Below, one piece after another: positions 20,678 through 52,600 of a stretch of DNA of 64,000 nt (position 1 is its first letter; each line of letters starts with the position of its first letter). This stretch comes from Physcia stellaris (lineage: Eukaryota; Ascomycota; Lecanoromycetes; Caliciales; Physciaceae): the NCBI GenBank assembly GCA_018902385.1, contig JABSSW010000012.1:620001-684000 (forward strand). The letters run 5' to 3'. Made by a program: the position numbers and the translations under genes. The notes under the pieces were generated by a model. The model searched no databases, had not been told where the DNA came from, and was given only the letters and a program-made list of their open reading frames with translations.

Positions 20678-23261
20678 CTATCCTCCTAACAGCTCCTCCG
20701 CCCCCTCCACCTTCCCCCTCACAATCTCACACCACCTCTTCACCCCAGCCTCATCCCCAGCCTCCACAGCCTCCACAATCCCCGCAAACCTAACCCCAGA
20801 ATACCCCATCCACAGCCCCGGCGCAAAAACAACATGCTTATACCAACTCCTCCCATCCAAGCCCTCGGGATACAAAAACTGCCTCTCGAAGTACTTGTAC
20901 TTCCTATTCACGCTCTGCACGGCGTAGTAGAGCTGAGCGCGCTGCCACCACTTCCACCACGGGACGCCGGCGCGGATCTGCGTCTCGAGGGCGGAGGCGT
21001 GCGCGTCGAAGGAGATGGCGGTACGTTGGAGGGCTGCGATTGCGGATTCGAGAGCCGAGAAGGGGGAGGAGGTGGTGGAGAGGGGATGGGTCAGGGAGCG
21101 AATAGATTCGTTTTCTGATTTCCCGGCGAGGTGCTTCACGCTGTCGAGGTAGCTGACCAGGGCTGTAGCGTAGTCCGTGGCGTTGAAGCCTATGATGGGC
21201 GACTCGAGCAGCGATGCCGCGAGCAGAGCCCAGACTTTCGTGACGGTGATGTGGTATTTGAACCCTGGGTCGCCGAACTTGTCCATCCAGTGGAAGCTGT
21301 CGTAGTTGCTGTGATAATGGTACACCGGCGAGTCATGTGCAGGCGCGAAACCGATATCCACGCTGGGGATCCCGGCGAAGTCCTGGAAGGCGGTGAAATC
21401 GCTGCCGGCGCCTATGGTGCTGATATGGCCGTTCCAGGAATCCCTTACCGTCTGGCCCGGTACCGTCTGGTTGGGCGACGTTACCAGGGATGTAACTTCG
21501 TACAGCGCTTTATTCAGCAAAGGCGAAGCAGAGAGCCTGAACAGCGGACCCCGCGCACCGACATCGACGTTTATGTACGCGATTGCGGCGGAGGACAGCC
21601 AGGGCAGGTATTCCTCGACCCACTCTGTCGAACCCACCAGCCCATATTCTTCCCCGTCCCAGCTCGCGAAGACGATTGTGCGGAGGGGTTTCCAGCCTTC
21701 TTTGAGCGCGGCGCCGAAAGAGCGGATGACTTCGTTAAGGGCGGCGGAGCCGCTGTTCGGGTCCCCGGCGCCGCCGGCGATCCAGGCGTCGCGGTGGTTG
21801 CCTAGGATGAGGACTTCGTTGGGGAGGGAGCCATTTATGATGCCGATGACGTTCCACTATTCGTGATTTCGGAGTCAGCATTTCTATACTCGGGCAAAGG
21901 TTGGGGCCACAAGGGTACGTTTCTCGAGGAAACCACTGCTACAGTATGTCCCATAACAGAAAGAAAGGCAAACACAATTTGTGAGAAAACGTACCAGGGG
22001 GGTTGTAGTGTAGGATTGTTCATTGAGGAGATTGAGGACGACAGTAGGAGGTGAGGGACCAATGTTGTAGGAGACGTTTTTGTAGCTCAGCCCGCCACCC
22101 TGCCAGTATTTGTTGAAGGATGAAGCTGAGGGGCCGTGACCGTTAAGGGCTTGGAGGAGGGGGAGGGCGTCACGGTAGGAGATTGGAAGCGAGGGGATCT
22201 TCGGAGTGATGAGGTGAGGATCTCCACGATGAACGCCGGGCTTGGATGGGTAGCCAGGGGTTGTGGGATCCCCTGGTGCTATACCTGCGTATGTCAGTGG
22301 TTAAGCGGGTCTCACTATAGTTGATGTACATACTCAGATATTGGGTGCTGCCCCTTTCAACACTGCTCGGATTCCTCGCTGGTCCGTCAGGGTACGCTTT
22401 GTACCCATACACTTCGGTAATGTTGCGGTCCTGTTGCGGATCGGTGTACATAACTATACCCACCATACCCAGCTCTTGTGCCCGCTTCGTCTTTAGACCC
22501 CTAAATATACGTCCGTTCTTCACAAGAGCGATCTTGCCCTCCAAGCTGACGTTGGCCTTCTCAAGGTCCTCGAAATCCTTGTAGCTTCCAAAATTGGCGT
22601 AGACATACTGTGCTGTGACATTACCGCTAGCCGAATAGCCATGGAAGGTAGGCACGCGACTATCCAATCCAGTCGTGCTATCCTCCTCTAAGACATCCTC
22701 CTCGAGCTCGCATTCATATTTGACCGTATACGCGTGCTTCCCCTTTCCAGCAGAGGAAACTGATGTAGAATCTGATCTTGTTTCCAACAGTGCCAATCGG
22801 TGTCCAAGGGGATAGTTAATGTATACATCATAGGAGGCGAGTGAGGAGCTGACACCCCACTCCTGCCATCTCTCCCTGGTCCAGAGTGCCTGACTCAGAT
22901 TCTTGCCAGCAAGGTGCGGCCCAGCCGTATAATACTGACTCCATTCTCTTGCTTTCTCTTCCTTTGGCGTCTCCAACAGTACCTGCTGAAGCTCTTCATA
23001 AGACAGGCCCTGACTTTGCGGCCATGACTTGTGCGGATATGGCGAAGCCCACGGTAGGAAATCCCCAACTCTACGGCCGTCCTGATCGTTTCTTCGGGAT
23101 GGCAGTAAATCAATGGGCAGAAGAAACAGTAAAAGAACGATGAAGAAAGAGCATGCCAATGTTATGGTACAAAACCGCCTTAGAGTGCTGTGAGGGTAGC
23201 GTTGCTTTTGTCTGCCTACGACGACGGTGGTTACGAGGGGCGTCCGCTCGGAGGAAGACAT
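20678..23261 (-). CDS. M28-family peptidase, glutamate carboxypeptidase II-like, membrane-anchored
   Basis: Exons 23261-22334, 22284-21995 and 21856-20678 give 798 residues with consistent phases (introns of 49 and 138 bases). The N-terminus is cytosolic, with one signal-anchor helix at about 30-53 (FFIVLLLFLLPIDLL), so type II topology. A protease-associated (PA) domain follows. The M28 catalytic domain carries the two-zinc site: His in GNHRDAW, Asp in GDPNSGSAA, the Glu pair in WDGEEYGLVGS, Asp in INVDVG and His in HYHSNYDSFHW. The last 120 residues match the transferrin-receptor-like dimerisation domain. Relatives trim C-terminal glutamate from peptides; here it may act at the vacuole or cell surface. 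Substrate is not readable from sequence. Confidence 0.9.
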
Positions 23262-25981: not shown

Positions 25982-28900
25982 CTATCGGACCGAAACCCCA
26001 GATCGCTTGGTGTACATTCGGGCGGCGATATTCATCGACTGAAGCTCCTGGAAAAGCAGTTTGGCCGCATAGGGCAAGAATACTTGCGAGATTCGGGTCT
26101 TGTTGTGGCACGGTCGGCACTCGAATGTCTTTTTCGTGTAATTCCTGTGGTCACAGTCAGCCCAAATCCGTCAGCCTTGGCGTTATCTGGGTCCACTTAC
26201 ACTATCGGGGTCATCAAGCCACAGATGTCGCAAATGTGTACTCGGTAGGCGTCTGACACCTCGAATAGCCGCTCCTTCAAGAAAGCACTTGCTCCATGGG
26301 CGATCATACAATCCCGCTCCATCTCCCCGAAGCGGAGTCCACCGTCTCGAGCTCGTCCTTCCACCGGCTGCCTGGTCAAGATCTGCAGCGGGCCTCTAGC
26401 TCGGGCGTGAATCTTGTCATCCACCATGTGCCGTAGCCGCTGGTAATAAGTTGGTCCAAGGAAGACTTGCGCTACCAGCTTTCGCCCAGTGTGCCCATTG
26501 TACATGATCTCGAAACCTCGAGATTGGTAGCCATGCTCACGAAGGAGCCGGGAGACGGAATCGACGGTAACTTCCGTGAATGGTGTCGCGTCACCTTCAA
26601 AGCCTCGCAACGACGACACCTTGCTCAATTGACACTCGATTAAATGGGCGATAGTCATCCGGGAGGGAATGGCGTGTGGGTTGATGATCAGATCTGGCAC
26701 TACACCTTCGCTAGTGAACGGCATGTCCTCCTGGCGGTATGTAATGCCAATGGTTCCTTTCTGACCGTGCCGCGATGCAAATTTATCCCCAATCTGCGGG
26801 ATTTTGGTAGTTCGCATACGTACCTTGACAAACTTCAAGCCTTCAGCGTTGGTAGTCAGAAGCACCTGGTCGACCAAACCGCTCTCAGTGCTTCGCAGTG
26901 GAGTTGACGCGTCTCTCTTGGTATGAAGCTTAGTCCGTTGACCCATCTCCTCGGCATCCGGTGCGATAGGGGCTGTCTTGCCAATGATGATATCTTCGCC
27001 AGATACCCGAGCTCCAGGCACGATGAGACCGTCATCATCCAACTTGTCATATGTCCCGTTCTTGGTTCTGAGGGTGTCGCTCCGCATGGGCTTCTCGAAT
27101 GCTTCCACGACATGTGCGCCGATCTTTTTTCTTGATCTGTATAGGATCGATAGAATAAGCTTCTAAAGAGGCCACGGTCGATACTGCTTTGATTCATGAT
27201 GACAGAATCTTCCTGGTTGTAACCCGAATAACAAGCGATAGCTACAATCGCATTCTGACCCGCGGGCAATTCACGGAACTTGAGGTATTCCATGGACCGT
27301 GTCGTAGCAAGAGGCTTCTGGGGATAGTAGAGAATGTGCGACATCGTCTCCATACGCTGGTCATAGTTGGTAAGAAAAACGCCCATGGCTTGCTTGCCCA
27401 TGGCAGATTGGTACGTATTACGAGGCGACTTGTCTTGATTTAGCGGGAGCAAACCAATATGGAAACAGTAGACATACCTGATTATGATCCGGAAACGGAA
27501 TGATACTTGCGCAAATACCCAAGATCATGCTTGGATGGATTTCGCAATGAGTCCATGTGTGTGCTGTAGGATTCATAGGGGCTGTCACTCGTCGGTTGGG
27601 TTCGTCAGGATCTGGCTGGTCGAGCGTATATCCTGCCCGTAATTGTCTCGACATAGCAAGATCTTGCGGTGTCATGACAATCATCACCGTTTCCTCTTCC
27701 TCGGCATCTACGTATTCCACGACACCCTCGTCGATGAGTCCATTCCACCCAAAGGTTAGCTTCTCACGTACCTCTTTGTCCATGTCATAGGGGACAGTAT
27801 CATCATCATCTAGTTTCTGACTGTGTTCCTTACTGAAGACAAGCTCGCCACATTTATTGCTCTTCGGATCGTTGTCGACTACGAACAGAGGCCGCAAAAC
27901 GCGGCCTTGATCTGTAAGAATTCTGAATTCGCGTTCTCGTATATCACGGATCAAGCTGACCTCCGGCTCGAGCACATGCTTTCTTCGAAGAGACTGGACA
28001 GCGTTGACAAGATGGGCGGGGTGGCGATGAACGCCTACCCACACGCCGTTCACGAATATTTTGGTTGCGTTCGGAGCCGTGTGAGGTTCGTATTCTTCTA
28101 GAGATTCCATTTGCCTTTGGAGCAGGAAGGGAACAATCCCATCGCTTGGAGTCCCAACGGATACATGACACATCAGAGCCAGATTCTTGACTAGACCACA
28201 TGCTTGCCCTTCGGGCGTCTCAGCTGGACAGACGAGACCCCAATGGGTATTGTGCAGTTGTCTGGGTTTGGCTATTTTGCCGTCACGACCTATCGGCGTG
28301 TTGGTTCGCCTCAGATGAGACAGTGTAGAGGCAAACGTAAAGCGGTTGAGCACTTGTGAGACTCCTGCTTTAGATGATGCTGCCTTTTTTTGCTCTCCCC
28401 AATTGCCTGTCGCCAGAGAGTATTTAAGACCGTTCGTCAAAGTAGCAGACTTCACGCCCAATGTTAGAATGAACTCCTTGTTAAGCTCTATGCATGTCTT
28501 CAAGTATTTTTCAACATCCTTTGTGAGCTTATTGAACAGGGTCCGGAAGAGTCCAGCGAGAAGTGGACCAGCCAGATCAAGCCGCTTCTTGCCAAAGTGG
28601 TCCCGATCATCTACTTCTCTACGGCCTAACGCACATTGTAGCATTTTATGTACCATGTAACCGATGAAGAAAGCCTTCTTGGTCTCGTTGCCGGGGTTTT
28701 GAGACACGTGCGGTAGTAGTTCCTTAGTCAGTACATCTTTGGCAAACTTGACACGTTTATCATGAGTCATGAATTTGCCATTGCCACGTTTTCCTATAAA
28801 ATCCAAAGCAACCTCCTGATCTTGAATCACAAATGCTTCCTCGAGGCAAGGTTTAAGCATCTCCATCATTTGAGTATCGTTTCGGTCAAAGCAAATGTGA

Positions 28901-29880
28901 TTGAGGATATCCTCATCGGAGACGACACCAAGAGCCCGGAAGACAACGGCTATCGGGATATCAGACTTGATATAGGGTAGAGTGCATCTGATGGTCGATC
29001 CTTGAGCTTTGCCCCCACCACTGGAAAGCAGCTTTACCTGAAGACTTGAGATGAGTCTCGAGCCTTTTTCCAGAGCACTTCGAATTTCAGCAACGTAAGG
29101 AGTCGCTGTTGGTTGAGCTTTCTTGAACACTTGCACGATGTTTGCTGCACTCCGCTCTTGGGCGATCAAAACTTTCTCACTACCGTTGATGATGAAATAG
29201 CCACCTTGATCGTAAGGGCATTCGGAGAAGTTGTACAGCTCTTCATCCTTCAAATTGTAGAGATGGCAATATTTGGCTTTCAACATCATGGGAAGTTTCC
29301 CTATGAAGACCTTGAGCCCCTTCTCATGTCCTTCGTCGTCCTTTTCCGGTTCATCTTCCATTTCCCACTTGAGGTACGTGCCATTGTTTTGCTTTTCAAT
29401 GTGGGCTTCGTCTTCCATATCTGCACCATACTCTTGGTGAAGTTCGGATGCCGGGCGTTCACGGGCCACAGATACCCGCTTCGTCATCTCAATGTACATC
29501 GGAGCGGAATAAGTCAGGTTACGCAACCGCGCTTCCTGCGGTAACAGATAGCTGGTAGTCCCATCGCCTTCAGTCATCGCTGGCTTAGCGAGAATGAGGC
29601 GTGTGAATTTGATCTCGTATCTGCGCACCACGATCGGATCCGAGTCGTCGTTTGACGGAGGTGACTTGTGATCAACGGTGACGGTGGAGTTCGCGTCGAC
29701 TATCTCCTGCATGGTATGCATCATGAAATCGTTGAAAGAGTCAATCTGTTGAGACACCAGGCCTTTGCTCTCAAAGAAAGCAGAGATGACACGCCAACAG
29801 TCCTCAGATGTGATTCCCTCATCTTCCTCCTCCTCGGGATCCAGATAGTTCTCATCATACTCGGCTCCATCAGTATCCAT
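25982..29880 (-). CDS. rpb2: RNA polymerase II second-largest subunit RPB2
   Basis: Nuclear polymerase core subunit that forms, with RPB1, the catalytic cleft. Exons 29880-27478, 27428-26201 and 26144-25982, with introns of 49 and 56 bases. Start [19 protein letters not shown] fits the acidic RPB2 N-terminus. Marks: the SSEDCW-type start ([20 protein letters not shown]), [15 protein letters not shown], the fork and hybrid-binding regions ([20 protein letters not shown]), the active-centre loop [33 protein letters not shown], and the C-terminal zinc site (CDICG...CRPCHNK). One base is missing in the A6 run at 27125-27130 (T6 on plus), where [19 protein letters not shown] is expected. Counting that base, phases agree and the product is about 1,264 residues, normal for fungi. 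For an essential single-copy gene this is almost surely a sequence error. Confidence 0.95.
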
Positions 29881-31229
29881 GTTTGCGAATACGTAAGCAG
29901 AAGATCGCAGCGTGCGCTACACCGGTCGAGTCGGAAGGGGAGACAAGGGGCGTAAACTTCGGCTGACAGCCAAAAGTGCAGTCTTGGAAGATGATTCTTC
30001 GACAATGATTCCGCCGAGGATCATGAAAGAATGCGCTCGTGCAGCACGCGTGCAGGCATTCGCGATTAGTGAGTGAACACAGGAATGTATCAAGAGTGGT
30101 AAAGTGAACAAGAAGTGAAGCAAGCCCATTCATCCTTTTTTTGGCATGACGCTAGCGCGTAGCATCGCCGAGGCTAGGCTGCCGCTAGGCTGAAAGAGGA
30201 TGTGCGTCGAGCCCCACAGCAGAGCCGCATCTAACTTTTTTCTATTGCGACATGTGAAGCATCAGTGCAATCGCCATACAGCATCATCGGAAGCTTCACT
30301 ATGTACAGCACGATAGTGTTGAGGGAAGGCCCGGGATTGAAAGAGGAATACACATCAGACGAGCTTCTGTGCCTCTAGCCAAGGTCCTTTCATATACAGT
30401 CCACATCTAGCGTCGCATGTCTGCGATATCCCACGGCGAGAACAGGGTTGGGAAGCATAAGATCTGCATATCGACCGCTGCCAGGTTACTACCAATACAA
30501 CTCCACGGCCTCACTGGTAGAGCCCATGCCGTTTGCTATCGGTCACAACGATAATTAGGACAAAGCCATTGCTTAGAGGTCCATTGACAAGCTACAAGAT
30601 CCATAACATAAGCTGGAAGGTATAGTCACTTGATACCTTAATATGAATTCAAAGACAGTGATGGAACCAAATGGCTCCAACGCTCAGAATCAGTCTCGGA
30701 ACATGGTTGGTCTCGCGTTGTAGCCTGTTTTCTTCCTCTCTCACCCTCGAATGGAAGAAAACTCAGATAGATGTTGGCGCATTCACTCATGTGATTTTCG
30801 AGAAAGCCCACACTCTTGTTGCGATTGTTAGCAAATCGGGTTTGTTCAGATAGTTCTTCGCAACGATTAGCTATGTATCAACGATGATCATGACCATTAT
30901 CTCTATCTTGTCTCCTTGAGCATGAATACCAGCACTACTGCTGAGAATTGTGCTATGGGCACATGGCTATTAACTTTAGCAATTTGCAGAACGCTGAAGT
31001 TGGCTGTACTGTCAATTGAAGCGCTCTATCAATATCTCATTGATCTAAGAGTCGTGAATCGTCATCTGGCTGTGAACTGTGAGGACGATATTGTTACGGC
31101 GACACACTAGGGCTGGCTGTATCTGGACTAGTGGATTATCCAGGCTAAGATCTTGAGTTTAATGTAGCTGGTGAAATCAGAGAGCTTCCATTGACCTCCT
31201 TCAACCACCCAATCCTCTACTCCACAGCT
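29881..31229. promoter_or_regulatory. Divergent intergenic region, rpb2 and cox4
   Basis: 1.35 kb shared upstream sequence. Open frames at 30671-30853 and 30916-31110 are unsupported. No obvious TATA box next to either start, as expected for housekeeping genes. Confidence 0.5.
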
Positions 31230-34455: not shown

Positions 34456-37400
34456 TCAAGCAAAGTTATCGCTCCTATCAACCCAAACATCCTCTAGCTC
34501 TGCAAAATTCTGGAAATGCAAAGGCCGATGCACGTCCGCGTAAAAGCCCACAGGAACATCCATTTTGACACCCCACGGTTTCTTCTCCACGCTGCCAAAG
34601 CTACTACCCATGAACGCATAATTCCATACCCCCGCATTACCCTCTGGGACCAGGAAATAGCCTCTAATCTTGTCACTCAGGAGCAATTGGCATTTCTCGC
34701 CCATACCAGAAGTGCTGAAACCCTGAGGCATCTCAGAGGAAAGGTCCTTGTTCTCGCTTCCCCATTTGTAGCCTTGAGGTGTCAATCCCCACGAGGCGAG
34801 GGAAACAGAGCCGGGCGTGAAGGAGACCGTCAGGGTGATGGTTTTCTTGTCCCAACTTGAATGTGCGGACATTAGACGCGCGTGCTGAGTGAGGTCCGCA
34901 GCGGTCATGTAAGGGGGTTCGTTACCGCTGACGGTGTGAATGATACCGAGCGGTTCCATAGAAGCGAGGTTCGGGTGTTGTGGGAGGTGCTGTGCAAGTT
35001 GTACGTCGCGCGTATTGCCTACTTGAGGTACCATTACTATAGTCCGGATCTCTTTCACTTGGTCGTTGTCGGGTGGGGAGCTGCCGTAGAGGTAGCCGGC
35101 GACTTGCACGCGGAGGTCGGCGATGGTAATGAAGCGCTTCAGAATGTTTTTGGGCATGATGTAGGTATAGTGGCCCTCTTCGCGGACGTCGTCAGAAGAA
35201 ATATAGATGTTATTTGCACGCGTGCGAAGATTGGAGGTTGCAATCGCGCGGGTACGCCACTCAGTCTTCGAAGCAAAAGACTGCTGCTCGAATTGAGAGG
35301 TAGTCGTCACGATAATATCTTCGCCATGAACATTCTGCGTCTTTGTAGTCACAGCGGTGAGCTGTTGCTGTTCTTGTTGCTGCTTTTCGATTTCCGCAGC
35401 TTGTTGACGCTGCATAGATGGGGCGCTAATTTCCATACCAAGGATGATATCACGGACCTCACTGCTCGTCAAGCTAGACGTATTGACGTTGTTTTTCTTG
35501 CCATAGTCATTCAAGATGAGATCTCTTAGTTGGACCTCGACCTTGATCCAATCCTCGTCAGAAAGAGTGGGCCAGATGTGATGCTCCTTGGTAATCACGG
35601 TTTTGTCCGGACGTAGCAACAGCTTTGTCTTGTCTTGATTGACATGCAAGGCACGGAGGATCAAGATGAGCCTTGAGAAGGCAGTATATGATGATATTGT
35701 CTTGAGCCATTCATCGTAAAGGTTGTACAGCATCATCTTGGGTTCTGTGGCGCGTAGGATCATGTCACCGAGCTTCTCGACCTTCATTGCCGCCTGGAAT
35801 GGCAATTGGAGCTCAGATGCTCGGATTGAGATATTGGGAAAATCAAGAAGATGGACCTCAAGTGGATCCAGCAAGCCCTTCCTCGTTACAATCAATTGTT
35901 TCGGTTGCTCTTCGACAGGCAGAGAGCGGATCAGAGCAGCCACTTCTTCTGCCGTTTTCCACTTTGCTAATTGGCCAAGTCGCTTTTGTCCTGCCCATAC
36001 ACTGGTATGAATGATCTTCAGGAAGAGCTGACCGGTCCTAGGGTTGAAGATGAAGATCGCTCCATTTATCGGTTTGGTTGTCAAATTACCTTCAAACGTT
36101 TTGTGTATTGTTACACGGTAGACGTTGGTATCGTCGATAAAAAGCTGGATTTGATTGCTGAAGAGCTCTGAGTAATTTTGAGAATTTAAGAACTCTTGGT
36201 TGCTTTCCGATGCGTAGAGTTGTAGACCCTTCCGGATACGCTCCCTCAGTACGTACAATGCAGGGTTAGCTTTCATCACTTTGGCCATGGCCTGCTGTAT
36301 TAGAGTCTTGAGTCCAGGGAAGTACTGCCCGTAAGCCGAGTACAGATTATAGGCAAGATCGATACCAATCATCAAACCGGTCGCAGATGGGTATATACTC
36401 ATACTATCCTGGGTGTAATCCAGGTATTTTGCTCGTACATATCGTTCAATATCGTGAGAATCATAATCGCCGTATCTCAGCTGTACATCAATCCAGAACT
36501 TGTTGGTAGTTGTGGGCTCAGTGATGTCTTTGGTGTCGAATAGTATTGAGGGTCTTGTGACATTCCATTTGTGCGTAGCGAAGAGTAGAATATCAGCACA
36601 AGAGCTATTCATTTTGTAAGATTTTCTAGGATGGATCGTCTCTTTTTGCACAGTCTCGATGCCTAGTTGGTCGAGTTCCTGATCAAAGACTTGGCAAAGA
36701 TCCATCACGACAGATTCATGAATCTTCTGCCACAAATGGGCACGGAAGATCTGGATCAGAGATATCTTGAGGGTAGGGATTTTCCCGTGCAAAAAGATAC
36801 CGGTGAGGTCGAGCTGTACCTGGAAGCCGACGTAGACATTGGCACGATTGATGGTAGGAGACCACCACAAAGTGAAACGTCGATTGGGGATCTGATTAAG
36901 ACCAGATCGTTGGGCATTCGTAAGCTTCTTGAATTTCATCTATTGCAAAAGTCAGAGTCAGCATTGCGAGACTGAGATAAGCGTTGAGATGTAAGATGTC
37001 TGTCTCGCGATGTCTTACAGCTCCAGAAGAAATCTGGATGAGGAAAAGATTGCTCTGAAAAGGCTTACCGATTCTTCAAAACCGCTGTTATGGAGCACAA
37101 GATAATCGTGACGCAAGTACAGCTGGTCTTTATCCACTCGGAAACCTGCCCAATCCGTGGCTTGAGCTTGAAGGACGATGTCCTTGACCACGAAGCTGTG
37201 GTTTTGAGGAATACACCGTTCAACTCCGTTCTTGCGCGCAAGAAGACAAGGAACTTCAGCTAAGTTGCCGAATATCTGAGCGCACAGATGAGGAGATTGC
37301 TGCGTATGGCATGGGTCCCACCTCATGCGCCGCTTAGTCCTGACGCTGAAGCCTAACGACCGCGCCAGGCCGACAGTATCCCAGAACAAAGCAGAGTGCC

Positions 37401-40400
37401 ACAGCTCGCTTTGAGAAAAGCCAAACGTTCTCTGAGGAGATACGAACCAGCCGTTACTATCAAGCACTCCAGCAAGGACGGCAAGACGAATGGATCGTGA
37501 ATTCCTCAGGTATACCGATGGAATACGATTCTTGTCAGCCGCCTTCTCGTCCTCTAGTCCGCCATACAATCGGCGACTAGTCTGCAATCGAGTCCCCTCA
37601 CCCAGCCAGAGTCCAAGAAAGTAAGGATCAACCGGCACAGCCTGCTCGGGCAATTCAAAGCCAGGAGATCTAAAAAGCCTATACTTGCGCCTTTCTTTTT
37701 GGTCGAGGGCCGCGAATACATCAGCTCTCATTTCGACAGTATCGTAGCGCTCAGCTGCCAAGATCTCTGGGGAAGCCGGCTTCTCGTACTGATTCCCACC
37801 TATTCTCTCCTTGTGTAGGGTCAGAATGTGGTTTGGCGTAACGAGGAGTGGCTCTTGGCGGTTTCCAATCTCGATACGATAGAGTCGCTCACTGCCTTTC
37901 ACAATGTTGGATGCACGTCGACACCCTCCGTCTGGCCCAAGCAGCAAATTTCCTTCTTCGACGTCTTCGACTGCGATCTGGGTGCCGTCGTACCGCAGTA
38001 GTTGAGTCCCGTAGGCAAGACAAGCTTTTTCCCAAAAGAGGCCTTCCCAAGATGGAAAAGCAGTAGCCTTGAACAGCGTGTGCTCGAGGATTGTCTCAAC
38101 ACCACCTAAGGCCTGAATGACATCTGTTCGATAAGCGTTCAGATTCCACAATTTGCCGTCATGTCGTTGGCTAGTCCACCAGAACGGGTTACTCTTCATC
38201 AACTGGTAGGTCTTGAACTCTGTGCGAGCTCTAAAACCTTTGTCGAAACTTAATGTGCTCCTGTCTTTCTGGAACAGCGTGTTGATCCGAGGCAGACCTC
38301 GATCCCAACTATCCTCAAGATCTTCCAGCGTCAGGCGCCGATTTTGTTGATTGGCTTCCTGTCGCTTCTGCGAGTATTCGGTCCAAACGCGTTGCGAGTC
38401 GATGAACTCCGCCTCCCACGGGATGATATATCTGAAGATGTTCGGGATGAGGGTCTCTTCATCGTGGCTCATACCGGCTCGATAATGAGTGACACCTGTG
38501 TCTGTCTGTTTTGACCACCGCTTGTCGCTCGTAGGGATGAGAATATGTGACCCAGAGATCATGCCAAGACCACCAAGCTCTTTCGGCGTGTAGAAAACGG
38601 CAGGGGGGAATCTAGATGGCATCTTCGAGTTCAGACCAATCTTGACCCGAGTCTGAATCTTGGTTTCACATTTGACGATAGTATCTAACAGATTGACAGT
38701 CGACACTGCTGCTTCTCGATAGTAGGTGAACAGGGCAATTAGACTAGTGTTCCACTTGTTAGCAATCTTCGTGAATGTCGTAGATCCGGAAGACATGAGA
38801 ATCTGCCGTATACGGTTATTGAACTTCTGGATGTCCTCTTCTGTGACTTGTAAGAAAGCGTGGGCAGTTCGCTCTTTGCTAGTATTATCTACCAAAGCCC
38901 AGACACTATCCTTGATCTGGAATTCGTCGTTTTGGTTGCGGATCTTAGGAAGTATTCGAACTTCGAACCCACTCATCGAGAACAGTAAGTTCGGGTTATC
39001 CCTACTGTAGACACTGGCAAAGGTGTCATCCCATTCAATCGTGGTTATGGACCGCGGAAGTCGGTTCTTCAAGTCCCAGAACACTGCACGGCCAAGATTG
39101 ACATCGTGTCGCATGAGCCTCATTCTCGAATCACGAGGCCAGCACTTCTTGTTTCGATAACCAATAACGTTCTCGAAGTTGGGATCAGGCTGTTCAGTCA
39201 AAAATCGCTGAATGAGATCTCGCGACTCCTCGGCTGAAAACCTCAAAAAAACCCATATGCGGTCTATGTACCTAGTGTAGAGCCGAATAGGGTGCTTAGT
39301 CTCTGTCTTTCGATCTCGGAATTGCAAGAAGTCGTTGGGACTTTGCGGTGGACCAGCGATCTCGCTTGCCCTCTGGAGCCCAAGTAGCAGTAAATCGAGA
39401 ACCAAGCCGTAATACTGGAAAACGAATGCTGAAAATTGCAGGCCGCGGATCATGCCGTAGCTGTTCGTATGATTCATGTCCTTGTAATTTAGCTGCACAT
39501 TGTTCTTGGAAGAAATATAGTCAGCGAGATTATGGTCCATGATCAAGCGCAGGAGACGATTCAGAAGCGTCAAGTCTATCTTCTCATAGACCTTGGATAG
39601 TTGAGTTTCAATCATGACGTTGCACTCGCCATCAGAAGTCTCCCAAACGCCACCGAGATTGTTGATGCCTTGCGCCCATTTGTAAGTCAGAAGTGGTGGG
39701 ACCTCGGAGTCAGACGGCTTGATCCAAGCAGGGAAGAGATGTCTCTGATCGGCCTGATACCACAGGTACTGGTCAAGGTACGCGTCTGTAATTTTCTCAA
39801 TGGGCTCGATATCGTAAACAGGGTTGATGCTGCTGTAGTTATCATTCATGTCGATACCTACTTCTTTGAAAGCGCGCTGTGTGAGTAGGAAGCGCTTAAT
39901 ACGGGTGAGGGTAGTTCCTGGCGAGTCGTATGCTTGTTCAATAAGAGCGAGTTCTTCTCGTTGACTTTGATTTAAGCGTCCCTTGACCGAGTACGCTTCT
40001 CGCAGTCGCTCTAGAGCTAGGATCAGGATCTTTGTGTCATGCTTGTACGATACCGCTGGGAACGGTATTGGAGAAAACTTCCTGGACTCAAGCCAGTGGA
40101 CAGTGGTTGTATATATGGCGACTGCTTCCTCTGACGAGACGTAAGGGCCGTCTTTCATGTAATTATGCTGCCGCTCTTGCTCGGCTTTCAGCCATAGTCT
40201 GGTCAGTCGACCGAGGTTCTTCTTTGCAACAGTTTTGTCTACAGTGGCGCCACGCCTTATACGTTCGCGATTATAGTGGGCAACAGATATCCACCAGTCA
40301 GCCTTACTCTTCACATAACGTAGGATAATATTCTCGATAGGAGCAGGCAATCCAGGGACTTTCCATGGAATATTGCTCTTCCAGCATCTCCAAGCTTCCG

Positions 40401-42594
40401 AGAGATGTTGCAAGACAGTGTTGACTTTGTTTTGCTTGATGCCTTCAGGCATCATGTCCATGAGGTCTGCCATAACAGAAGCACGCAGCTCAAGATCAAA
40501 GTGCGACTCTACTCTCTGCTTCGTAACCGTCTTCGCTACACCTTTGCTATGCCGGCCTTCAAACTGCCTCGAAAGCAGATTGCCCAGCCATCGTTCGAGC
40601 AATGGAATGATGCCTCGCATAAAGAAAAGCCAGACTCTCCATGCAGGTGCCCAAAAGCCGCAACCCGGACCCTTTCCCACTGGGCCAGAATTGAAGCGGT
40701 AGTAGATTAAATGCTTCAAGTCTTTGCAAGATCGGATTTGGTGCATGAGCTTGTACTTGTATCGATACATCCCGGTCAGCTGTCCAACATGGTTGAAGGC
40801 ATACAAGATACCATCTGCGAGCTGGAAAGCATCAATATTGCCCAGTCGATACTGAACTTGAGCGTCTACAATCAGCTTCGTCAGACGGAGGATTTCTCGC
40901 ATCAAGTGGAAAGCATTTCCGAATCGTGACTTCTTACGCTCCTTTGTTGTCAGCGTCTTGACCGGTTTGAGATTGAAGTTGTAATCCAGATGCAGGTAGG
41001 TCAAATTTTTGCGATGAATAAGCAAGTTCAACATATTAAAACCTTGCCGGCAAACCTGAAGACCAGCTTCGACCCAGTCGATCGTGGTTTGTTGGAAGAA
41101 TTTAGTCGATCGTAAGGACTTCATGAGATCTTGTTTGTTCTGTGCCTTGGGCTTCTTTTTATGTAGTTCATTCAGGACAAAAGTCTTGAGCAGCTTCTGG
41201 TAGGAGACCCGAACTTTGACCGGCTGGCCTTGAGGAGTGTGCTCCAGGTACCATTGCTTTACCAAGGGCACGTCTTGAGCACGCACCATACGACCAGATC
41301 TTCGATCGAAGGGAAAGGGGGCCCACCACAACGCGATAGCAGATGACGTCTCATTAGTGTATAAATCTTCGTCGGCCATGAAAGGCTCAACGTCCTCAGG
41401 TAGCATGAACTCCTCATCCTCATTGTTACCGTAACCAAATATCTCGTCTTCATGGCTGACTGTGATGTTTTTTGGTGCGACCGAGCGTGACGAGATTGGG
41501 TTGATTATAGGATCGAAGTAAAAGGCGGGTAAGCTTGGATCTTCGGCTCGGACATACACCACCTGCGGATACGAATACCAAGATAGCTTGACGCTGCGTG
41601 GTAAAGAATTGTAGAGGAACGGAAAAGACACGCGGTATTCAGTCCTAATCGGCGCTCGAAAAATGATGCGATCGATAGCATTGAATTCGCCAAAGTCTTC
41701 GTCGTTCGGATCCACGTCTTTGTATAGGGGCTCAAACCTTGGTCCACCGGGTATAGCAACATTAAGAGCTTTCGCAGTCAAAAAGCTATTCAGATCAAAC
41801 ATATGAAAGTAATTTTTGTCGACCAAGTCGCTCAACAATTGATGACTTAGCCGATATAATGTTGCCATTTGCGGTAGCGTCAAATTCCACTCTTTGTAGC
41901 TGGGTCCGTTGACGTGTGGGGTGTCCAGAAGTGGTCGGTGCTCGTAAAGCCAATCATAGACAGGTCCATCCTCAACTTCATCAAGCTCCATCTGAATCGG
42001 TTCAAGTGGTTCCACGTCTTCAATATTCTCTGACCAGGATAATGGGGGCTCCTCGTCGTCGAAGGGAGGAAACCTCATACGTTTGAAGTGTCTTCTATCA
42101 CTCTTCTCCCTTCGCATACACACCCACATGGTAGCCCACTGTGCATGAAACACTGGCTCGATGACTCTTGGGGTTTCGTTGACCATTGTCAAGCACCCGT
42201 TCACGTGGTAGAGCACTTTGACTTCTCGTGAGGACTCCCAAGGCATTGGCATGTTTTCTAGTAGTTTCAGAACGGCATGTGGCATAAACTTCAAAGCACC
42301 CAGGTAGCTTCTCTTATCGCTGCTGAATTTCTTCTGCGACACATCGCCAATGTCTTTGACAATTTTTCGTAGATGCTCTGGTGGCATGTCGGCTTTTTGG
42401 GTTTCGACAAATCCACCTTTGCGCTTCTCTCCAAAGCGATTCCGCTGTATCCGTAACCATTCCTTCTTTTTCTGTGCAAATTTGGCAACCTGGGGATCGG
42501 AAGGTGGTTGATAGCCGGGTGGGGGTGGTGCAGACGGCATTGAGTGAGACCCAGCGCCCCAGCCGGGCGGTGGAGGAGGTGGTAGAGACGACAT
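34456..42594 (-). CDS. prp8: Pre-mRNA splicing factor PRP8, intein-containing precursor
   Basis: Largest U5 snRNP protein, at the heart of the spliceosome. Exons 42594-37069 and 36939-34456 (129-base intron just after SGFEES) encode 2,669 residues; without the 312-residue intein the mature protein has about 2,357, normal for fungi. Start [13 protein letters not shown] is the usual Pro-rich N-terminus; an in-frame GTG upstream is ignored. Family blocks: [20 protein letters not shown], the RT-like core ([20 protein letters not shown]), [20 protein letters not shown], the linker and endonuclease-like region ([20 protein letters not shown]), the RNase H-like domain, and the C-terminal Jab1/MPN domain ending [20 protein letters not shown]. 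The intein splits FWEKA from SGFEES, a classical fungal insertion point. Divergent from rpl34. Confidence 0.97.
37087..38022 (-). mobile_element. PRP8 intein, 312 residues, degenerate LAGLIDADG endonuclease
   Basis: In-frame insertion at residues 1525-1836 of the precursor. Splicing residues are intact: Cys1 ([13 protein letters not shown], block A), TPNH at about 62-65 (block B, TxxH), and the end [11 protein letters not shown] with penultimate His and terminal Asn before Ser+1 (blocks F/G). Between them lie endonuclease remnants: LGLWLGEGT at about 136-144, where the acidic position is Glu instead of the usual Asp, and LAGVLDSNG at about 183-191, where the catalytic Asp is Asn. The two motifs are only some 45 residues apart and little follows the second, so the endonuclease has lost sequence. 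Intermediate in size between mini-inteins (about 170) and full PRP8 inteins (500 or more). Expected: self-splicing active, homing inactive. Confidence 0.93.
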
Positions 42595-43055
42595 CTCGAC
42601 AAAAGAACGTCTCTCCAGGTGCTCAGCTGTGAATTCAATCACATTAAGAGCCTACCGTATAGATTGGGCGCTGTACGATGCGCTACTGAGGGTCCCAAAA
42701 CCTATCACCGTAGCAAGGCTTTCCTTTGACTTCAGTCACTCGAAGTGATTTATGGGCCGAGAATGCGTGTATCACGTCCAAGGCGGGATAGTTGTTCGAT
42801 GACCGGGGAGATTATCCGGTCTCAATACCGACCTGGAGCAATTTAATGCTTCAACTGAGGCGAGTCTCTTGCATTGTCGTGTTTTGCGTGCACCTCGAAG
42901 TGGCGGCTCTTCCAAAAACCTTGAGGCTAGTCTGTTTCGTACTAGCGGGGGCTCGGTTCTAGCCCTTCAAACGCACAACCGCCTCACTACATTTTGATGT
43001 CGTCAATTCAATATTGAGCTATCACCTCTACGCAAGCTCATAGTCACTATTGAAG
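42595..43055. promoter_or_regulatory. Divergent promoter region, prp8 and rpl34
   Basis: 461 bases drive both genes. A possible prp8 leader intron end (TTCACAG on minus, near 42627) lies upstream of the chosen ATG. No clear TATA box. Confidence 0.5.
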
Positions 43056-44989: not shown

Positions 44990-45463
44990 AGTAGCACGTA
45001 TCTTCATTTATCTGTTTAAATCTTTAAAGGTCAAGATCGACTTGTACATTCGAAGATAGCAATAAGATACCTTAGAGAATTTTCGAGATAGAGATGGATA
45101 TTAGCCAAAACTGCATCTAGAAGTGAAAGGCAAGAAAGGATCTGGTGGGATTGCCCCCAAATCACACTTAGAAGTCCTTGAACCCTAACGGGTGCATAAC
45201 CCTAAGGTAAAGCAGCCGTCCTCCGCCAGTTGCCGCGCCCCTGATGCACCTGCACGCCGAAAGCTGAGCTTTTGTGGGGTGTGCTTGCCTGTATCGCAAA
45301 TGCTTGCGCTTTTTCATGGTACCGAAACAGTACGAAGTAGTCCACGTTCTTCTTGCATGCTTGACTCGGTGAGCGGAAGACTTCAGATGTGTGGCCCTAG
45401 AGAATAAGACGATCCTGCTGGGATACCTCCAAGAAGCCTCTTGTTGGCAAGTCCTATTCAGAA
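44990..45463. other. Divergent intergenic region with two AACCCTAA motifs
   Basis: Between cgi121 and the Zn2Cys6 gene. AACCCTAA occurs at 45181-45188 and again at 45197-45204. The minus-strand frame 45168-45506 is not credible. Confidence 0.45.
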
Positions 45464-48353
45464 ATGCCCTCGAACAAGCGGGCTGCCCGTGATGACCCAT
45501 CTTCACTTCCCAATGGGAATAGGAAAAGGGTCAGACAGGAGGCTGCTACTACTGACTACTCGAGCGATGTTCGCAAAAAGCTGCAATCGTCAAATCGGAC
45601 AGGTCAGGCTTGTGACAGATGTCGAGTCAGTATTGCCGAGATCTTGTATATGATCCATGCTGACCCAATCCTTCAGATGCGGAAAATGCGTTGTGATGGC
45701 CGTCCTGACGGCTGCGGACCGTGTATGCAGAATCAAACACCCTGTAGGACCACAGACCGTATGACTGGTATCGCCAATGAACGAGGTCATGCGAAGAGAC
45801 TCGAGCAGCGGATACGGGAACTTTATAACCACATATGCGGCTTGGAAGGACAACTAACTTCGCTCGGAGCTGATGTTAAACCCTTCAACACCGACTCAGA
45901 CCCCTCTATTGCCCCTTTGCTCCAGTGGAACAAAACCCAGGAGCAGGGCGCCGGTCAAGACTGGGAAGCCGAAGGGTCTGAGGCTAGTGATAATGGGAAC
46001 GAAGCCCCTTACACGCCTTCGCAGAATGGCAAGTCGACCTCACCAAGCTCGGATGGCACGAATCGCCTTCCTGAATTTCGTGACGGTCTTGCTGGGGACA
46101 ACTACCTTGGTGTATCGTCCGGAAACAGCTTCATCAGCTCCATCCGTGGAACGGCCATGAATGTTTTAGGAGCCGAGATAGACCTCGCAGACTACATGTC
46201 GCCTGATATGGACGAGCCAGATTCTTCGACCTTTGGAGCCGAGTATCCACTGAACAAATCCTACCGTGCCTTCGTTCAAACAGCTTACAATTCAGGCCCA
46301 AAGCCTCCGAAAGTCAAGCTGCCAGTAGAGAAAGAAGGTCGCACCTATGCCGAGTGGTACTTTCGAGTGATCAATCCGTATCTTCCGATGCTTCATAAGC
46401 CAAGTTTCCTCGCTACGGTAAGGCTCCATCTACCTCTTGTGCCTCCCCTGCTAATGCTGGGACAGCTTTCGAGATTCTATGATCATAAGGATGATTTTGA
46501 GCCATCAACTGCCGAGACCGTCATGGTACACATGATGTTTGCCATAATGTACTTCCAGTATGCCTCACGGAATGGAGAGAACGCTAGCCACTCGTCCGGG
46601 CTGAATGATCTCTCCAATCGCCACTATCACTATGCTTTGAGCTTCTTCCCTCGGTTGATGGCTAGCCATACTCTACAGGATGTGCAAGCGCTGACTATGA
46701 TATCACTGCACCTTCGTAGTTTTCCAAAACCAGGTGCTTGCTGGATGCTTAGCGCAACGACGCTTAATTTAGCTATCGAGCTTGGTCTTCACAGATCGGC
46801 GAAGCGATGGGCTCCAATGCTCCCCAAGCGCAGCTTTCTTGAAATAGAGATGCGAAAACGAATCTTTTGGTCAATATATACTATTCACACAATTGTAGGG
46901 GGTAAATTGGGTCGACCGATGGCACTTAGCCATGAAGATTTCGATGTTGAAATACCTCAAGCAGTGGATGACGAGCTTCTCACCGCGGAGGGTATTGACA
47001 ATCCTAGGGAGGGTAAATGTGGCTTCTTGGTCGGTATCGAATCATTCAAGGTTACTACGCTCTTCACGGATCTGTACAGCAACATCTACACTGTCAGGCG
47101 ATCTCCAAGCACATACATCGATACAGTCCGTCGATTGGAGAAGCGGATAGAGGAGTGGTGCGAGCAATGGCCTCACGAGTTGAAGATTGGAGACGCATCG
47201 CGAGATGAACAAGGCAGAGTTCATGCTCAATACATGAATGTTTCCAATATGGAGCTTCGTCTTCTACTCCGGCACCCATCAATTTCTCTCACCACTTCCA
47301 AAGAGTTCAACGAGGAGAACCTTACTAAATCCATGGATGCGTCACGACGGATGTTAAAGCACGTCAAAGTGATACAGAAGTACAGGAGCCTCGACACCAA
47401 TTGGCAAACAGGTGCTCTGTACGTCCTCGCCATATCCACAACGCTGTTCGGTCAATGGGAGCGTGTTGAGCAGATAACCGAAAGCGGTCTAACGGAGTTG
47501 AAACAAGACATGAACGATTGGTTGAGCATCATGGGAGATATCGGTGAGCTTCTGGGTAAGCTTAAAAATGCGATCCTCCCGTCTCTCGCCTGGCTCTGAC
47601 ACTGCCACAGGATCCGGGAAGCGCTTACAGGACGCAGTTCGGGTGACGGTTGACAGAACCTTGACCTCTATTGAGCAGCATCTTCGAGCCAAGGCAGCAC
47701 CTGTCACCTCTCAACCTTCAAAGAAGAGAAATGTATCCAAATCCGCGACTAGCGGTCTCTCGCAAGTGAAGTACGAGCAATACCAAGTAGCAGATGGCTA
47801 TGGGTCCTACACGAAGCAAGCAAACGGTGTCGTGAACGGTGCAGACAGCCAAGGCAAGGTTCGATCTACAAGAGACATCAGCATTCCCACGCAACATGAG
47901 ATGCCATATGCGCCTACGGCACCGTATCCATTCCTCGGCCCTAGCAGTACGTACGTCCATACTCAAAGTCCATATGCCCCGACAGCCTACACGGGGACTG
48001 AAGCTGCATCTTCCGTACCTCAACAAGCCGGTGGTGCTGCTGGAACGGCCTATCTCTACTCGACCCCCTCGTCGTCAACGGACGCAGTCTACCAGGCTGC
48101 AATGCCCGTCAATTTCGGAGCCGGACCGCAAATGTCCTGGCGCAATTGGGCAGGAAGCATGGCCGGTAACATGCCTACCAACGCGTCACCGCACGAATAC
48201 ATGAGTTCGGCCAGCGCGCTCATGCAGCTTGGGAGTCCGCAGAATAATCCGGCTGGTGTTTCAACTGCCACGGGCATGCAAGTTGGAAGCAATATTGAAA
48301 CGGCCCAACAGTGGCCACTGATGATTTTTGACGGTAATCAGCCTGGGGGTTGA
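45464..48353 (+). CDS. Zn2Cys6 fungal-specific transcription factor
   Basis: Exons 45464-45625, 45677-46417, 46466-47555, 47611-48353; 911 residues. Two introns (51 and 48 bases) are multiples of three and stop-free, so a naive frame reads through them. The first lies inside the zinc cluster: TGQACDRCR is joined to MRKMRCDGRPDGCGPCMQNQ. Six Cys fit C-x2-C-x6-C-x6-C-x2-C-x6-C. A linker and a short coiled coil follow (HAKRLEQRIRELYNHICGLE). The fungal-trans regulatory domain spans about 240-600, with AETVMVHMMFAIMYFQYAS and RKRIFWSIYTIHTIVGGKLG, RPMALSHEDFDVEIP. The C-terminal 240 residues are Tyr/Pro/Gln/Ser-rich and may activate transcription. Such proteins bind CGG-type sites as dimers. Target pathway unknown; the cluster resembles sugar-related regulators only loosely. 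Confidence 0.9.
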
Positions 48354-49653
48354 TTGCTCGAGGGCTCGCAGAAGCCCTGAAACATTGACGTTGACATATT
48401 TTTAGAGTCTCACGGCACTTTCCCTAGGTTGCTTGGGAAGCCAATTGTGTGAGGATTGGAAGTGCGTCATGGGATTAGAGGGATATGAAGCGCAATTCTT
48501 GAACCATGTATGAGTCACAGCATGGTCAAAGTACTGTATGCCAACAATTGGGCCTTGGTGGAAGGACTTTGGCGTCGGGGGTTAGAGGGCATTACTGGTA
48601 AAGACTAAAGAGGTACCATTTGGTGTATCTACAGTATCTGTAAATATGATACCTATCAATACATGCATGTCACGATTTAATCGAGATCCAAGGCCAAAGG
48701 GGTGACTGCTTTCTGTTCCTATTAGCTGGGATGACTGTATCATCACGATCGATCTGATAGATCGCATTATTATACATCAGCTGAGATGACTTGAAGATTT
48801 TACCCCTCCCGATCTACAACGTCCAATCCACGAACCAGGAGGTCGGGTCCTTTTTCTGGAAGACTGATGATCTCCCGCCCAACGTCCCTGTGCTATTCTT
48901 ATCCCTTGATGCTGCCAACTTGTATGAGATTGATCAGAATAGAATGCTGACCTAGGTCATCCATCCCGTGCACGTTTCACCATTCTTTGACTCTTGCCAG
49001 CCATACGTTATCTAAGCGAGTCCCGACGTCGCATCTACACTCCTCGACCTTCTGTGTGTTTGAAACGAATGGGAGCCTTTCAATCCACTTGACTGGCTCA
49101 CCCTTACAACTCTTACGTCTTTGCTCGCATGGGCCTACTCGTCTCTAAACTTCGGGCATATTAGTGTCTTCGCGTTGAGAGATAATTGCAACCGTCGGCC
49201 TCCTCAGTCGCGCGCCTGGACACCGTCTGCTTGTTAGACTCTTCTCCACCATCTTCGGGCTGTTCTACATCTCAAAAATCCGCGAGAGGGCGCCTTTATC
49301 AACGTGCTCTTGGACTACGGGAAAGATCCGCCCACGCGACCCTTCAACTTAGCTTGGATTCTATCAAAAGCCCGTGTGGCGTCCGTCAAAGAGAGCAAAC
49401 ATCTGATTCACTGTTATAGTTCCACCAAGGCTTCACTAAGGCGAGGGAAATAGTGCTCAAATCACGTCCTGGGGTTTGTTGGCCAATCACGAAAGAGCTG
49501 GATAGGATCGATATCGAAACATATCCTGCAGCTGCTTGAGAGCAAACATCTGCACCTCCCTGGACAAAGACATGCCACCAAGTGACGGCTTCTACATATC
49601 TTTTCAGGACCAAAACCTAGCCATCTTCTTCCAAATTCTATAACAGTAGGACC
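48354..49653. other. Intergenic region
   Basis: 1.3 kb, 3' flank of the regulator then promoter and possibly a long leader of the next gene. Small frames (49186-49419, 48582-48767) unsupported. Confidence 0.5.
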
Positions 49654-52600
49654 ATGCGCTCGAGAAGACATGGCAGCAGTGGTGGGGGCACAACGTTTGC
49701 CAGCAGAGCAAATGCGGCCCCCATCCCGGACGCCCTGACCTTGATCAGGACCTTCAACTCGGAGAGTAACCCTTCAAGACCGATCCGACCGTCTCCTCTA
49801 ACAGCATCAACCATACATGACATACCGCTTGACATATATTACCGTCTCCAGACCTTTCCTTTGTTCCAGTCGGCTCCAGAGTCTTTTTTAGTGGCCATAG
49901 GAAAGCACTTGAGACCTCAAGTACATGCACCTCACGATTATATCCTGACTGAAGGCGAGGATGCTAAAGCGATGTACTGGCTGGTCCGAGGGGAAGTAGC
50001 GGTAACATCGAGAGACGGGGAAAGCATATACGCTGAGCTTCAACCCGGGGCCTTCTTTGGGGAGATCGGCATCTTGATGGAAATACCGCGAACTGCGACC
50101 ATATTGGCCCGCACCAAATGCATGCTTGTCGTTCTGAAAAAGGAGGATCTCGTCAAAGAACTTCCCAATTTCCCTGAAGTGGAGCGAACCATAAGGGATG
50201 AGGCTTCCGAGAGACTATCGATCCTCCAGCGCAAAAAAAAGGAGAAGCTTGCATCAAAGCAGCCTACACCTCTGCCAGCGGCTGCGCGGGGGGGCAAGAG
50301 GGCTAGAGACGGGGAAGATGGGGATACCATCATGACGGACGGCCTCAGTGGCACCTACATGAATGGACATTCAGTCAGCAAAAAGCGGAAGTCTCCATCA
50401 CCGGGCCTGATCGAAGCGGCTGGCTCCAGTGCGCTGGGCGATGGCTTAGTCAATGTGAGACAACTGCTTAAGGAACTGCCCCTTTTCGCTGGATTGCCGC
50501 CTGACCTCTTACACTTCTTGGGACTCAATGCGCAGCCTTGCAATTATGCACCGTTCACGGATATCATCTTGCAAGGTTCTCAAGGCCAAGAGGTGTTCTT
50601 TATCGTGAGAGGGGAGGTCGAAGTTCTGAAGGACGATGACAACTCGTCACGACTCAGAAACGGGGCCAAAAGAAATAACATCAAGCGCGAGTCACACGTT
50701 AAAGCGCGACTAAAGCCAGGGCAGTATTTCGGTGAACTGGCTAGCTTATTATTAGCCCCTCGAAGGACTGCTACTGTGCGATCTGTAAGCTCGGTTGAAT
50801 GTCTGATGATAGGAGGAGATGTCCTACTTAATTTCTGGGAGAAATGCCCTCCAACGCTCAGAGACCAGGTCAAGAAGACCGCACACCAGCGCCTTCGGTC
50901 CCAGACTGATGAAGATATTGACATGCCCGATGTAACAGATACGGCGCCCATTGGTAAGCTTGCGATTCAAGAGCGGGCAAAAACGAACCCAAGAAAGAAG
51001 TCTGTCCCAAAGGTGGTGGCCTTCACCAAACCTGAATATGGCCATAAGCCTAATCGCGTTGAAGATCGGCCAATCATCCAACCCGCGGATCCCGACCCAT
51101 TTCTGAACGTGGATTTGGATAACATCCGTTCAAGATCACGTCGTTCATCGCTCGCTCCTCCACCTCCCGACGGTGCAAATATCAATGGCTCTGAAGCCAA
51201 TGATAGAAAGGTTTCGCCGACAGGATTGAAAGCAAGTAACTCTGTACCATCACACATAAAGCACGAAGTCACACCTCCCGAAATTGCGTCTCGACCCAAG
51301 CGACCGAAGACAATTCAACGTCGCCCCCATGAGCCACCCAAGTCCTCTCTTCCCGATAATGTCCTTACATTAATCTTCTCCCACCTTGAATTACACGAAC
51401 TGATGCGATTCCGGCCTGTTTCAACACATTGGTGCAAAATCCTCAAAGAAACTCCCTCACTACTACGCTATCTCGATCTTTCCAAATACAATCGATTCAT
51501 AACCGACAACGCTCTCATCAAATCCATATGCCCCTTCGTTGGCCTCCGCCCTCGCACAATCGATATCTCTAACTGCTTCCACATCACCGATGAAGGTTTT
51601 GCAGCGCTGGCCAGAACCTGCGGTGCAAACGTTATGACCTGGAAGATGAAATCAGTCTGGGACATCACCGCACAAGCCGTACTCGAAATGGCTAACGGCG
51701 CCAAACAGCTCGAAGAAGTCGACCTCAGCAACTGCAGAAAGGTCTCCGACAATCTCCTTGCCCGTGTAGTTGGTTGGGTCGTCCAAGGCTCACCACCTAC
51801 TTCATCACACGCCCGCGCCGCCCAACGTGCCGTCGGGGCACCCGCTCCTCCGCAGCAGCCCCATCCGCCGGGGACGGTCTTTGGATGCCCGAAGCTCAAG
51901 AAACTGACGTTGAGTTATTGCAAGCATGTCACTGATCGGAGTATGGCCCATATGGCCTATCATGCTGCCGGCCGGCTTGAACAAATTGATCTGACGCGGT
52001 GCACGAGCATCACAGACCAGGGCTTCGCGCACTGGGGACAATTCCGCTTCGACAAGTTAACGAAGCTGTGCTTGGCGGACTGCACGTATCTGACGGATAA
52101 CGCCATAATATGCCTCGCGAGCGCGGCGAAGGGGCTGAAGGATCTAGATTTGGTAAACACCCGACTTTCTTTTTCTTTTTCGTAGATGAACCTTCCTTCT
52201 ACTAAACCTCTTCTTCTGCCGTTTGCACCGAATCAACAGTTTCCCGACTTGGGATCTTCCGTCCCCCATTTCCCACTCCTCAAACCAAAAATCCCAGAAA
52301 CAGTCAGCTAACCCCCTTCTCACAGTCCTTCTGCTGCGCCCTCTCCGACACCTCCACAGAGGTCATCTCCCTCGGCTGCCCGCTCCTCACAACCCTGAAC
52401 CTCGGCTTCTGCGGCTCCGCCGTCTCCGACTCCTCCCTCCGCTCCGTGGGGCTACATTTGCTGGAACTGCGCTCGCTCTCGGTGCGCGGCTGCGTCCGCG
52501 TCACGGGCCAGGGCGTCGAGAATATCGTCGAGGGCTGCATCCGCTTGCAGCGCTTCGATGTCAGCCAGTGTCGCAATTTGGGGGGCTGGTTGAATCAGGA

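Follow-up and report, generated by a model that had tools for sequence, protein, structure and literature searches.

The Prp8 gene of Physcia stellaris and its intein

We analysed a 64,000-nucleotide stretch of the Physcia stellaris genome (the window), in which the gene for the spliceosomal protein Prp8 carries an in-frame intein. An initial annotation had described this intein as eroding, with intact splicing residues and a mutated, shrunken homing endonuclease. That annotation named no strand. The plus-strand reading of 37087..38022 contains six stops and was rejected; the gene lies on the minus strand and is arranged as follows.

34456-42594, minus strand: Prp8 gene, with a long exon 1 and an exon 2
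37069..42594, minus strand: Prp8 exon 1 (N-extein, intein, SGFEES), with the first ATG of the frame at 42594
37087..38022, minus strand: Prp8 intein of 312 amino acids, in frame within exon 1
37642..38022, minus strand: N-terminal splicing half, residues 1-127, with Cys1, block A and block B TPNH
37087..37185, minus strand: C-terminal splicing half, residues 280-312, with block F and block G ending in His-Asn
36940..37068, minus strand: GT...AG intron of 129 bp, predicted by reading the sequence, six codons past the intein
34456..36939, minus strand: Prp8 exon 2 (C-extein, frame to stop), matching Prp8 chains with an E value of 0

Exon 1 is held in an open frame at 37015-42651 on the same strand. 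The C-terminal part of Prp8 scored highest against chain 9l5r (1614.5 bits). The residues flanking the intein, WEKA and SGFEES, agree with a putative placement at Prp8 intein site a. Table 1 of PMC1508164 gives introns of 51-177 bp adjoining several Prp8 inteins.

The intein occupies exactly the interval first annotated and has the residues of a class 1 intein, namely Cys1, a TxxH motif in block B (TPNH at 62-65), a terminal His311-Asn312 and Ser+1. Over residues 1-127 and 280-312 it aligns with the Cryptococcus Prp8 inteins 6mwy and 6mx6 (4.9e-42 and 2.5e-40), and the predicted model, which has a Hint fold, superposes on these two structures at 1.4 Å over 138-141 residues with 53-57% identity. 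The element thus sits in Prp8 and resembles known Prp8 inteins. Judged by sequence, this match and the best match to a phage intein (9e-25, over the whole length) both lie far beyond chance, and an intein that is splicing-competent, with all splicing residues present, fits the data best.

In the organism's own assembly (44 Mb, 147 contigs) there is a single Prp8 locus with a single copy of the intein, and no empty Prp8 allele was found there. Third-position GC content (GC3) and codon use do not clearly differ between the endonuclease remnant and the extein. A search of the genome with PF05203 and PF14890 found no other intein, a weak negative, as PF14890 missed the Prp8 intein too. A Hom_end match elsewhere in the genome (G000:C21, E value 0.58) was taken as chance after inspection of the first 600 bases of the locus.

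Relatives of the intein

Phage records matched the intein at E ≤1e-3 in 245 of 50,697 cases, with 212 of these covering at least 80% of the query; among the 60 phage matches listed, most lie in helicase, terminase or hypothetical genes. Plasmid records matched in 5 of 72,556 cases. A single-protein search of viral contigs and genome contigs found no relative, and viral loci were reached with an alignment (A1) of the intein with eight phage and two plasmid inteins. The A1 search supplied the best 80 of 443 confirmed viral candidates from the first 600 pattern matches, and none of these 80 loci has a stop inside the match. The eight phage and two plasmid inteins, the 80 viral loci and Clavibacter phage CN1A make up the 91 relatives counted below. 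Near-identical rows are included among them; under 90% identity, 81 remain, 75 of which have at least 50 residues between blocks C and D (the C-D interval). Because the viral loci were found in part with a block-E pattern that permitted D or N, the sample leans towards an intact block E. The matches of L056, L071, L072, L077 and L081 stop short of the intein's last residue, and in L063 the block-C column has a gap and is uncertain. L006 (a portal-gene match with a frame 1 full of stops) and L015 (a partial match in a Pantoea phage) were excluded from the counts. L098-L103 were inspected by eye, outside the 91, and for L103 the motif search gave no block C.

Catalytic residues and fold of the endonuclease remnant

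The remnant and its motifs are placed as follows.

37186..37641, minus strand: LAGLIDADG endonuclease remnant, residues 128-279, between the two Cryptococcus-matched stretches
37591..37611, minus strand: block C LWLGEGT, residues 138-144, with Glu142 (Asp in 88 of 91 relatives)
37525..37596, minus strand: shortened C-D interval, residues 143-166, where the DNA-binding sheet of the first half is missing in the predicted model
37519..37533, minus strand: block D KNRIP, with Asn165 (Lys in 81 of 91 relatives)
37450..37476, minus strand: block E LAGVLDSNG, residues 183-191, with Asn190 (Asp in 90 of 91 relatives)

A profile was built from an alignment of the window with 59 viral loci (A2). In it, the columns of Glu142, Asn190 and Asn165 align to D218, D326 and K301 of PI-SceI, the yeast VMA intein, which is active, has a complete first half-domain and keeps all three residues, unlike the intein here. 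PI-SceI positions were counted on the printed alignment; the name K301 is, we assume, the correct one and is consistent with that count. Both motifs are therefore where the initial annotation had put them, and their acids fall on the metal-binding columns as it had proposed; the objection it had raised against itself, that the motifs might not be the catalytic ones, did not materialise. Its statement that Asp is normal at both positions also holds, since the relatives differ from Asp in only three cases at block C (Tyr, Gly and Asn) and one at block E (Thr). A third loss had been overlooked, that of the block-D Lys, which is replaced by Asn165 directly after Lys164. The two LAGLIDADG Asp residues bind metal and are critical (PMC1508164), and the block-D Lys is a putative active-site residue (PMC10849329).

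The phage, viral-contig and plasmid inteins, found in helicase, terminase and other genes, align with the Prp8 intein over the full length. Unlike it, 79 of the 91 keep Asp, Lys and Asp, and in 85 of the 91 the C-D interval spans 55-84 residues, compared to 24 here (31-60 shorter). The spacing between the motifs is thus short, as annotated. The accompanying claim that it is also short after them proved wrong: block E is 102 residues from block F, and of the 85 relatives whose C-D interval is normal, 84 have 89-106 there, the exception being L077, whose match ends early. In the predicted model, the two LAGLIDADG helices and all of the second half-domain are folded against the splicing domain, and no strand lies between helices 133-145 and 176-190, suggesting that the first DNA-binding sheet is absent. 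This modelling had been proposed in the initial annotation, and the prediction bears out the splicing fold. The Pfam families Hom_end_hint and Hom_end matched slightly under their cut-offs; the single NCBIfam match (E value 0.21) was at chance level. The isoelectric point (pI) of the remnant is 9.75, compared to a mean of 9.3 for the 85 relatives, so decay through lost DNA-binding charge found no overall support, even if few relatives have a second half as weakly basic (net +5 compared to a mean of +9.5; 9 of 85 equally low).

Set against an active LAGLIDADG enzyme, the remnant has an acid at one motif (Glu142) and not at the other (Asn190), has its Lys one residue before the block-D position, and is predicted to lack one of the two DNA-binding sheets. 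It is also no mini-intein, a form of ~130-200 amino acids without endonuclease motifs, as it has 312 amino acids and recognisable blocks C, D and E; it lies between full-length and mini Prp8 inteins with its splicing residues intact, as annotated. It resembles inteins with a degenerate endonuclease of the PhoVMA type, in which the LAGLIDADG domain is recognisable and the catalytic residues are lost. On this evidence the endonuclease is very probably dead. Glu142 alone is no proof of this, because blocks C and E bear Asp or Glu (PMC10849329); Asn190 and Asn165 together with the lost sheet are stronger evidence.

Nor was the short C-D interval retained as sole proof, because the CN1A intein, the start of which is provisional, has an interval of 28 residues and keeps Asp, Lys and Asp. 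In CMP1, the nearest other phage with a match spanning the intein, the interval is ~63 residues, and by this comparison CN1A looks like a deletion derivative. Deletion can therefore precede the catalytic losses. Intervals of 28 residues or fewer occur in 6 of the 91 relatives: L013 (1501-2262), L057 (1501-2295), L014 (1501-2223), L063, L037 and CN1A in L012. L013, L057 and L014 are also short past block E (77, 77 and 63 residues), a condition that none of the other 85, whose C-D interval is normal, shares, early-ending L077 aside. This hints that the first sheet is lost first, in a sample biased by the block-E search pattern. Judged by eye, Makemake and Beatrix (genus Fromanvirus) have terminase inteins in which the C-D interval is long and Asp, Lys and Asp are present; Bethlehem is presumably a close relative of these phages. 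The Bethlehem TerL1-c and BAKA TerL1-b inteins cleave inteinless targets (PMC5050341).

Among the conserved columns still present in the remnant, only catalytic ones are broken

The losses were placed among conserved positions in a column test, using the 75 non-redundant relatives whose C-D interval is 50 residues or longer and the columns at least 80% conserved that the window still has. The window keeps 29 of the 32 conserved columns of the remnant, and the three that it breaks are exactly the catalytic ones. By a rough hypergeometric estimate, P is ~2e-4 at 80% conservation, 6e-4 at 90% and 0.008 at 95%, where two out of two are hit. All 29 structural columns are kept in just 19 of the 75 relatives; one catalytic column is broken in 6 of the 75 and more than one in none. 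Two more conserved columns fall in the deleted C-D interval. An initial tally over 81 relatives gave 5 of 33 endonuclease columns broken in the window (three of them catalytic and two deleted), a number reached or passed by 12 of the 81. In its N-terminal splicing half 6 of 19 columns were broken, a number reached or passed by 1 of the 81. What distinguishes the window is which columns are broken rather than how many. General agreement with the relatives is below usual in the remnant (z -2.3, -2.1), and further below it in the splicing halves (z -3.9, -3.2).

The word 'eroding' in the initial annotation thus holds only in part: it implies random decay, but 29 of 32 conserved columns are kept and the lost three are catalytic. 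The state of the window is probably derived, because the ascomycete Prp8 endonucleases of Butler 2006 (PMC1508164) all have both Asp residues, save PbrPRP8 and ClaPRP8.

Selection on folding, decay or residual activity

We consider it probable that the element is a splicing-competent intein in the middle of Prp8 with a catalytically dead, about half-sized and still folded endonuclease, the core of which is kept by selection on precursor folding. The lost catalytic residues and the shortened C-D interval are read from the sequence; the retained LAGLIDADG helices and second half-domain and the loss of the first DNA-binding sheet are predictions of the model. The Prp8 precursor would excise the intein and join its exteins, and the intein would no longer be able to home. 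As Prp8 is essential, stop codons and frameshifts would be excluded from the intein. The need to splice Prp8, given in the initial annotation as the sole reason for the persistence of the intein, explains this open frame but not the retained fold core, which may instead be held by selection on precursor folding, not mobility, and may act as a plug linking the two Hint halves. Splicing depends on a degenerate endonuclease domain in MjaTFIIB (PMC6801210) and on an endonuclease domain, there an active one, in TliVMA (PMC8966425).

Neutral decay, the view of the initial annotation, is a possible but rather unlikely explanation. The intein would be fixed, homing would be unselected and the endonuclease would be drifting away, with its core intact because the loss is recent. 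The homing-cycle model, in which degeneration follows fixation (PMC1508164, PMC8966425), agrees with this, as do the one deletion and the three catalytic losses, and PhoVMA, degenerate but folded, splices without its domain. Decay would, however, be expected to strike structural and catalytic columns alike, and none of the 29 structural ones has changed; the Pseudomonas plasmid intein L014, which does look decayed, has 18 of 32 columns broken when gaps are counted. A disarmed but folded endonuclease is preferred over random erosion because only catalytic columns broke and the structural ones were kept. It is distinctly unlikely that the disarmed endonuclease is kept because its fold core and basic character are selected for a role of the half-domain that serves the host or the intein; the half-domain could then set the rate of Prp8 splicing or, after excision, bind the prp8 region without cutting. 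A compact endonuclease still nicking or cutting through Glu142, the shifted Lys164 and an intact second half is highly improbable. In its favour, PMC10849329 counts Glu among the active-site acids, the C-D interval of CN1A is about as short although Asp, Lys and Asp are retained, and the remnant is basic. The combination of Asn190, Asn165 and the loss of the first sheet speaks against it, and CN1A, given the longer interval of CMP1, looks like a deletion derivative that may itself be inactive.

Several points count against selection on precursor folding. PhoVMA splices even with its degenerate folded domain deleted (PMC8966425), and the Prp8 inteins of Cryptococcus and of many Aspergillus and Neosartorya lack an endonuclease (PMC1508164), so a need for the endonuclease fold is not general; the PhoVMA result lowered our confidence slightly, to the level stated above. 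The column test weakens to P 0.013-0.017 at 60-70% conservation, omits the two conserved columns lost with the C-D deletion, assumes equal mutability of columns and takes its conserved columns from phage and plasmid inteins rather than fungal ones. If selection against cutting had favoured a loss not long ago, the same pattern would result, and the remnant, with its basic composition, may bind DNA.

Neighbouring genes

The window also holds an RNA polymerase subunit 2 gene (26197-29916, minus strand) with Pfam Rpb2 domains in both frames, and no intein-like insert is evident in these two frames. Inteins are known in RPB2 of other fungi (PMC10849329). Two plus-strand frames at 14401-15180 and 16420-17292, ~2 kb apart, are rich in Lys, Arg, Ser and Asp and look alike by eye; they may encode related proteins in tandem. 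The remaining genes are ordinary neighbours.

18712-20490: Slx4-type protein
20678-21856: M28 peptidase with a transferrin-receptor dimerisation domain
45401-47599: fungal transcription factor
49621-52185: cyclic-nucleotide-binding F-box/LRR protein

Comparison with known inteins and significance

The Cryptococcus neoformans and C. gattii mini-inteins (6mx6, 6mwy) have 170-172 amino acids and no endonuclease motif (PMC1508164), in contrast to the 312 amino acids and LAGLIDADG remnant here. Full-length Prp8 inteins (Aspergillus, Histoplasma, Botrytis), compared by description, likewise sit in Prp8 with Hint and LAGLIDADG blocks; those of euascomycetes have 517-838 amino acids and C-D distances of 212-300 (PMC1508164), and the Botrytis intein homes with 100% efficiency in crosses (PMC3158057). 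SbuPrp8i of Salmacisia buchloeana, likened here by description, is also an intermediate-length Prp8 intein (284 amino acids) with a LAGLIDADG domain; its host, unlike ours, is a smut-like fungus (Tilletiales), and partial motifs are reported in other species (PMC10849329). The archaeal PhoVMA intein (Pyrococcus horikoshii, 7qst) keeps the architecture of its degenerate domain, which neither binds nor cuts (PMC8966425). It is truncated in block E, whereas the loss here lies in the C-D interval, and its endonuclease has a surface pI of 5.45 (PMC8966425), compared to the basic remnant here. Another fungal case of a degenerate endonuclease domain is the Phaeosphaeria RPA2 intein (PMC1635734).

Degenerate inteins are thus already known (PhoVMA, the Salmacisia intein), and this element is an additional informative intermediate. 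No mention of it was found among the titles and opening lines of abstracts listed from the open literature, and a genome paper could exist. Green 2018 describes a 200-700 amino acid class of eukaryotic inteins with LAGLIDADG endonucleases. Butler 2006 (PMC1508164) lists euascomycete Prp8 inteins as full-length (517-838 amino acids) or mini (153-180 amino acids); it reports that neither Prp8 inteins of intermediate length nor remnants of the endonuclease were detected, and poses the transition between the forms as a question. The present element and the 284-amino-acid Salmacisia intein fall in this length gap. A dead endonuclease that is predicted to stay folded is a stage, seldom described, on the way from mobile to immobile insert, and the pattern of loss suggests an order in which the fold core outlasts both the cutting residues and the first DNA-binding sheet. 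Should selection act on this core, the retention of a dead endonuclease for splicing in a spliceosomal protein becomes testable.

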